Shown here: positions 31,461 through 32,052 of the stretch, piece by piece | How positions within the stretch are numbered: position 1 is the first letter of the stretch | Layout: every line of letters starts with the position of its first letter | NCBI GenBank assembly: GCA_028821515.1 | Contig: JAPPGA010000057.1 | Location: 1-40,828, forward strand | Source of the DNA: Gammaproteobacteria bacterium | GTDB lineage: Bacteria; Pseudomonadota; Gammaproteobacteria; Pseudomonadales; Azotimanducaceae | DNA: 40,828 nucleotides | Direction: 5' to 3' | Translations under genes and position numbers: made by a program | The notes under the pieces: generated by a model | The model's database searches: none | What the model was told of the DNA's origin: nothing | What the model saw: the letters and a program-made list of their open reading frames with translations, nothing else

Positions 31461-31518
31461 TCACATCGACTTCGTCGACCGGACGCGAGCATAATGCCCA
31501 CAGTTCCCGGAGGCTCTC

Positions 31519-32052
31519 ATGAAATTCCGACCTCGACTCGCCAAGTGCGCTGGCGTCCTGGCCTGCGGAATTCTCACCGCAAGCTGCCTGGCCGCGGACG
31601 TCGGCGATACGGCTCCCGACTTTCGCCTGCCGGGTTCAGACGGCCAACACCACGCGCTGACCGACTACCGGGGCAAGTTCGTCGTCATCGCCTTTTTTCC
31701 GAAAGCCTTCACCGGCGGCTGAACCGCGCAGTGCAAGGCGCTGCGTGACAGCGCCGCAGAGATCGAAGCGTTCGATGTCGCGTACTTCATGGCGAGCGTC
31801 GACGAGGCGGAAACCAACAAGGCGTTCGCCGAGGAGCATGGGGCGAGTTTTCCCATCCTGTCGGACGCGGATCGCACAGTCTCCACCGCCTACGGCGTGC
31901 TGTCCGAACGCGGGTTCGCGAATCGATGGACCTTTTTCATCGATCCGAATGGGGTCATAGCCCGGGTCGATCGCGAAGTCGATGCGCGCACCGCCGGCGC
32001 CGACCTGGTGGAACACCTCGAGGCGCTGGGCGTACCGCCGGCAGAAGACTGA
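31519..32052 (+). CDS. Selenocysteine-containing peroxiredoxin (predicted selenoprotein, TGA at codon 68)
   Basis: Read through an in-frame TGA at 31720-31722, the frame encodes a 177-residue Bcp/PrxQ-like peroxiredoxin with an N-terminal signal ([16 protein letters not shown]), so it is probably exported. The active site reads [14 protein letters not shown], matching the peroxidatic PxxxTxxC motif with TGA exactly at the catalytic Cys (residue 68); Cys72 may be the resolving residue. The remainder ([27 protein letters not shown]) is an intact peroxiredoxin fold with no further stop, so it is not a decayed gene. A SECIS-like hairpin follows immediately (31732-31758). A GGAGG ribosome-binding site precedes ATG. 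It reduces peroxides. Alternative: nonsense mutation TGC to TGA, judged less likely. Confidence 0.88.
31732..31758 (+). promoter_or_regulatory. SECIS-like hairpin for selenocysteine insertion
   Basis: GGCGCTG (31737-31743), loop CGTGA (31744-31748) and CAGCGCC (31749-31755) form a perfect 7-bp stem; TGC/GCA extends it below an AA bulge. The loop begins 21 bases after the TGA and has G at its second position, fitting the usual bacterial SECIS rules (a stem-loop soon after UGA with an early loop G recognised by SelB). Confidence 0.75.

Follow-up and report, generated by a model that had tools for sequence, protein, structure and literature searches.

Gene and in-frame TGA

Does the TGA that interrupts a peroxiredoxin gene in this stretch of DNA (the window, 40,828 nt) end a broken gene, or does it encode selenocysteine (Sec)? 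The gene lies at 31519..32052, on the forward strand like all window features described here, and encodes 177 residues when the TGA is read as Sec68. A ribosome-binding-site-like GGAGG (31509..31513) stands 5 nt 5' of the ATG at 31519, which is in frame with the TGA at 31720-31722 (codon 68). The frame then continues through 109 sense codons to an ordinary TGA stop at 32050-32052, in agreement with the 110 intact codons, stop included, of the original prediction. The Pfam AhpC-TSA model matched across the in-frame TGA (E = 1.7e-35; 122.1 bits vs a cut-off of 26), and the halves on either side each matched the model alone (1.1e-9 and 1.4e-17). The active-site motif is P-K-A-F-T-G-G-TGA, or PKAFTGGU, a form of PxxxTxxU, and it aligned with the Cys codons of homologues, which bears out the placement of the TGA at the peroxidatic Cys of PxxxTxxC. 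Gene splitting by an annotation pipeline had also been anticipated, and a mechanical list of open reading frames (at least 80 aa) lacked the whole gene and recovered only a same-frame 3' piece, 31789-32052. The peroxiredoxin gene 31519-32052 almost certainly encodes Sec at TGA 31720-31722.

Selenocysteine machinery

Reading the TGA as Sec predicted that the genome would encode selA, selB, selC and selD, and all four are present. In the window's genome (4.04 Mb, 86 contigs), selA, selB and tRNA-Sec lie side by side on contig C85. Profile search values were 1.4e-164 for selA, 9.4e-123 for selB and 3.0e-81 for selD, and the tRNA-Sec scored 72.6 bits, with anticodon TCA by ARAGORN. The selD match (L022, G000:C33:7666-8574) is within a 754-aa ORF (763-aa open frame) that contains no TGA and joins a Pyr_redox_2 domain in front of the two AIRS domains of SelD. 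This fusion looks like the Ndh-SelD type in the accessible text of PMC2398784.

Searches for selA and selD covered the window's genome, and the selB search covered 38 genomes (the window's and relatives) plus 8 chosen ones. Of 97 relatives, 57 scored above the Rfam cut-off for tRNA-Sec. A few of these hits could be tRNA-Ser, since ARAGORN assigned the matches of 48.0-48.6 bits from three genomes to that tRNA. Among the 26 family genomes with the TGA form, 21 had tRNA-Sec by Rfam, the weakest of them (G070, 49.8 bits) being confirmed by ARAGORN, and a 22nd, G042, had it by ARAGORN. It was not found in the TGA-form genomes G006, G067, G048 and G073, which are 64, 73, 85 and 85% complete, and the sole match in G067 (48.3 bits) was tRNA-Ser by ARAGORN. 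Of the 16 TGA-form family genomes searched for selB, 13 exceeded the cut-off, and G023 (91% complete, tRNA-Sec present), G067 and G048 stayed below it. Two TGA-form genomes from other families, G425 and G407, had both selB and tRNA-Sec. In G021, the Sec peroxiredoxin (L046, G021:C5:18321-18776) begins 58 nt beyond the selB frame, and both are on one strand. Proteins in the upstream flanks of L043 and L059 (G065 and G071) clustered with the G021 selB.

Sec/Cys exchange among relatives

A search of 97 relatives gave matches at E <= 1e-10 in at least 88, many of them other peroxiredoxins. We read 52 loci at the codon, comprising the 50 best matches and two further loci; L055, a duplicate of L026 on the same contig, was excluded from all counts. 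The peroxidatic column held TGA in 27 loci (26 genomes, the window's included), TGC in 19 and TGT in 6. The Cys/Sec exchange expected from the original prediction is therefore found at exactly the TGA column, with 27 TGA vs 25 Cys codons. The frames of 25 TGA loci run to a stop at the usual length, the exceptions being L037, with an additional in-frame TAA, and L064, which runs off its contig. A class-wide draw of 369 genomes gave a match at E <= 1e-30 in 10, the window's included, and the other nine carried TGA in two (G425 and G407, from other families) and a Cys codon in seven. Cys at Sec+4, which is Cys72 in the window's protein (codon 31732..31734), was present in 27/27 TGA loci and 24/25 Cys loci.

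A tree of the 52 proteins grouped 20 Cys rows in one clade (support 100/99) apart from the Sec rows and placed the Cys rows L032, L033 and L042 with L050 among the Sec rows. The Sec or Cys label needs four changes on this tree (3-5 over bootstraps), of which the well-supported branches force one, with 22 of 49 inner branches open and a midpoint root. The tree suggests repeated Sec-to-Cys conversion. G017, G054, G041 and G069, whose Cys form falls among the Sec forms, have kept tRNA-Sec.

One genus is split between the Sec form (G000, G003, G005 and G006) and a distant Cys form (G002, G004, G007 and G008), and neither form was among the 50 best matches in its ninth member, G001 (71% complete). 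The Sec form adjoins endonuclease III in G000, G003 and G005, and the Cys-form members have other flanks. G048 and G073 share a genus, and their loci L045 and L064 are identical in protein over the 148 aa of L064; G073 also has a diverged copy, L048, indicating either two copies in one genome or mixed bins. Flanks of the 52 loci, which mostly reached up to 1.5 kb on each side (about 0.5 kb for 20 loci and 4 kb for L056 and L057), had no widely shared neighbour, the largest cluster comprising 4 loci, and we therefore propose no operon partner.

Selection downstream of the TGA

Decay across the gene in close relatives would have pointed to a nonsense mutation according to the original prediction. 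Instead, the region 3' of the TGA is under purifying selection for its protein sequence, and an extra TAA occurred in L037 only. dN/dS 3' of the TGA was 0.13, 0.20 and 0.24 between the window and its congeners L026, L027 and L028 (dN and dS of 0.012/0.092, 0.117/0.594 and 0.152/0.626, respectively). Other pairs gave dN and dS of 0.106/0.661 (L026/L027), 0.158/0.923 (L027/L028) and 0.047/0.533 (L036/L040), and synonymous sites were saturated for L045/L048.

SECIS hairpin

The predicted 7-bp hairpin was reproduced at 31737..31755 (GGCGCTG-CGTGA-CAGCGCC, loop 31744-31748), with the stem 14 nt and the loop 21 nt after the TGA and a G at loop position 2. It thus has the suitable distance and the G in the apical loop that are expected of a bacterial SECIS. 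By itself the hairpin is weak evidence for Sec, because comparable stems are common after TGA triplets in the window. We scanned both strands of the 40,828-nt window, with 1009 TGA triplets in all, for stems of at least 7 bp (G-U allowed) whose loops are 4-8 nt long, start 16-37 nt after the TGA and have G at position 1 or 2, reporting the first hairpin per TGA; these limits are similar to those of bSECISearch. A comparable stem followed 66 of the 1009 TGAs, six of these stems had Watson-Crick pairs only, and among the six only TGA 31720-31722 was reported with a CGTG loop.

Conservation among the homologues takes the hairpin, as judged from sequence, far beyond what chance would be expected to give. 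The string CTGCGTGACAG, comprising the five inner pairs and the loop CGTGA 21 nt after the TGA, is identical in 27/27 TGA loci, and the five inner pairs are formed in 0/25 Cys loci. The outer pairs 17/35 and 18/34 are formed in 24 and 9 of the 27 TGA loci, respectively. Conservation of the loop is partly protein conservation, because CGTGA coincides with the codons of a conserved Arg-Asp, and the informative part is the synonymous choice. Leu75, Arg76 and Asp77 each use a single codon (share 1.00) in 26/26 aligned TGA rows, a table that omits the contig-end fragment L064 (counted among the 27 TGA loci), and in comparison columns, where at least 90% of rows have the same amino acid and there is a choice of codon, the most frequent codon accounts for 0.27-0.81. 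CGT makes up 20 of the 215 Arg codons outside the hairpin region of these genes and is used at Arg76 in 27/27. In L079 (G407, another family), Leu-Arg-Glu is encoded by CTC CGT GAG, and the loop-adjacent G-C is replaced by C-G with the loop CGTGA kept; this swap is compensatory, leaving the stem intact.

Thermodynamic support for the hairpin was modest. For the 51 nt from the window's TGA, the favoured fold is a different hairpin (-18.4 kcal/mol, z -0.88), and the expected one is obtained with stretches starting 9 and 10 nt past the TGA (28 nt, -15.1, z -2.22; 38 nt, -14.4, z -1.19). In folds of 54 nt, the expected hairpin was kept in 18 of the 27 TGA loci and absent in nine, including the window's. 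With a UGA in the A site, roughly the first dozen nt that follow it lie within the ribosome, so the 5' arm of the competing hairpin would be removed. Rfam SECIS_1 (RF00031), which presumably models the eukaryotic element, had no match in the window's genome or in 14 controls and is uninformative here, and Rfam at gathering thresholds found only a tRNA in the window.

Alternative readings of the TGA

A nonsense mutation, pseudogene or sequencing error, in which the TGA simply ends a broken gene, is exceedingly improbable. Other TGAs do act as ordinary stops, the one that closes this very gene among them, and the relative L037 carries its additional TAA, but a broken gene would not be expected to show a TGA at this one column across 27 loci (26 genomes) and in two genomes of other families, purifying selection downstream of it, and a hairpin frozen at synonymous positions. 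The TGA distribution, dN/dS and the hairpin freeze oppose this explanation as strongly as sequence can. Genome-wide reassignment of TGA to Trp, Cys or Gly would also keep the frame open, but we regard its probability as practically nil: the gene itself and several relatives end in TGA, the genome encodes selA/selB and a tRNA-Sec whose anticodon is TCA, and such a code would leave the hairpin without a use. Because TGA also terminates the gene 31519-32052, we read the window with the standard code.

A subtler possibility is that the UGA serves chiefly as a switch controlled by selenium, with a 67-residue product if selenium is scarce and the full-length protein otherwise. To our knowledge, competition between UGA termination and Sec insertion is general for bacterial selenoprotein genes, and in the window the competing hairpin overlaps the SECIS. 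However, nothing observed pointed to a distinct short product, and the competing fold of the window is common only to L025-L027, with a similar one in L043, among the 27 TGA loci. We consider a primarily regulatory UGA very improbable.

Other TGA peroxiredoxins and a shared loop

The window's genome has a second TGA peroxiredoxin, L089 (G000:C76:7530-7919, reverse strand), an AhpE-like protein with the motif FPLAFTGG-TGA-SNQ and apparently without a signal peptide. Its hairpin, TTCAAC-CGTGC-GTTGAA, places the loop 24 nt after the TGA. L089-like genes were also observed in G003, G005, G007, G009 and G040. Beyond the 50 best matches there were 18 weaker single-TGA matches among those listed, of which 11 were fetched as paralogue loci. 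L094-L098 and L101 add a further pair of TGA peroxiredoxin types from relatives (STPG/STGG-TGA-T..G.GFRDRIQ and ADFTPG-TGA-TKQAC.IRDM); their loops begin CGTG. A tblastn search at E <= 1e-2 missed L094 and L098 of the 11 paralogue loci; read from their own frames, both hold the TGA and the loop. A regular-expression match in L098 was false and was dropped. The other seven of the 18 weaker matches listed are single-TGA peroxiredoxin-like matches in open frames of 333-453 aa from seven relatives (G004:C72, G006:C453, G023:C38, G042:C63, G069:C144, G071:C11 and G001:C586).

In all 12 of these other TGA peroxiredoxin loci (L089 and the 11 fetched), the hairpin loop begins CGTG, 21 or 24 nt after the TGA, as found with a hairpin finder that accepted a loop only if one of its first two bases was G and that scored each stem on its own. 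The stems differ in sequence (TTCAAC/GTTGAA, GCATA/TATGC and GGATTC/GAATCC), and some are weak, at about -2 to -6 kcal/mol. CGTGA overlaps conserved Arg-Asp codons in three of the four subfamilies and Arg-Ala codons in the fourth. A broader reading, which we advance tentatively and rate slightly short of an even chance given the single Sec/Cys change forced by well-supported branches and the overlap of the loop with conserved codons, is that the window's protein belongs to an exported selenoperoxidase subfamily not described before, from a gammaproteobacterial family, with a periplasmic Sec68-Cys72 pair one helical turn apart, a fixed CGUG(A/C) loop read by the SelB of the lineage, and Sec-to-Cys conversion with hairpin loss in up to three separate branches. 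SelB would be the reader of the fixed loop because the TGA subfamilies keep CGUG(A/C) and their stems differ.

Protein, probable export and proposed mechanism

The N-termini of the window's protein and its relatives have, by eye, a hydrophobic stretch before an Ala-rich cleavage-like site, and for this reason the peroxiredoxin is probably exported. The probable signal peptide covers residues ~1-25 (31519..31593), and residues 1-22 had pLDDT < 50 in a fold model built from a 4-row alignment (pLDDT 85.1). Residue 68 is near the start of a model helix, 66-77, that also contains residue 72, and the nearest PDB folds were BCP (9a4d) first and the 1-Cys AhpE (1xxu) second. Since Cys at Sec+4 is conserved in nearly all loci of both forms, Cys72 is a candidate resolving residue.

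The gene most likely encodes an exported peroxidase with Sec made by SelB/SECIS recoding, for which we infer export, the partner Cys72 and the reductant. SelB and Sec-tRNA(Sec) would bind the hairpin 14 nt past the UGA and insert Sec at residue 68, a recoding step read from sequence, and the preprotein would then probably be exported to the periplasm. The Sec68 selenolate would attack hydroperoxides, the presumed substrate, to give a selenenic acid, which could be converted to a selenenylsulfide by an external thiol or by Cys72, a helical turn further along. A periplasmic thioredoxin-like protein may serve as the reductant of this selenenylsulfide. The peroxiredoxin family, the Sec column, the conserved SECIS, the Sec machinery and selection can be regarded as established at the sequence level.

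Because mechanical gene calling breaks the gene, it would overlook an exported, selenium-dependent defence against peroxides in these genomes. What selenium buys could also be studied in this family as a natural experiment: Sec and Cys homologues occur next to each other, the Cys forms lack the hairpin, and the four genomes whose Cys form falls among Sec forms have kept tRNA-Sec.

Comparison with known peroxiredoxins

All 13 NCBIfam models matched by the window's protein scored under their curated cut-offs, including peroxi_PrxU NF040737 (68.3 bits, cut-off 270), Prx-SUH NF045827 (30.3 bits, cut-off 298) and the BCP/PrxQ equivalog NF006960 (91 bits, cut-off 140). PHROGs gave one match, to a family of unknown function. 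The BCP/PrxQ thiol peroxidases (PRK09437) provided the best NCBIfam match (7.1e-26) and the best fold match (9a4d). The second Cys of E. coli BCP is at +5; the window's protein differs in having Sec for Cys and its second Cys (+4) one position earlier. Mycobacterial AhpE (1xxu and others) has the closest solved sequences (1.6e-22) and shares the FFPxAFTG active-site context, but it is described as 1-Cys, with an active-site Cys and no Cys at the aligned +4. The 20-row Cys clade (the CTIECKSLAENG type), mostly from the same gammaproteobacterial family, is 41-55% identical to the window's protein and shares the Cys at +4 and, by eye, a signal-like N-terminus; it differs in its peroxidatic Cys, the absence of the SECIS hairpin and its position as a separate clade (100/99).

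Prx TxxU (pfam00578/COG1225) is a listed selenoprotein family in the accessible text of PMC13188914 and PMC9312934, which cite the peroxiredoxin of Eubacterium acidaminophilum as its experimental case, and the GOS survey reported 253 Prx TxxU sequences (PMC2398784, accessible text). The same portions of these three papers make no mention of such an exported subfamily. The window's protein appears to differ from the family in its score under the peroxi_PrxU cut-off, its probable signal peptide (by eye) and its Cys at Sec+4. It shares with the family the AhpC/TSA domain, the PxxxTxxU motif (as given in the accessible text of PMC13188914) and Sec as the peroxidatic residue, and is a further member of the established Prx TxxU selenoprotein family.
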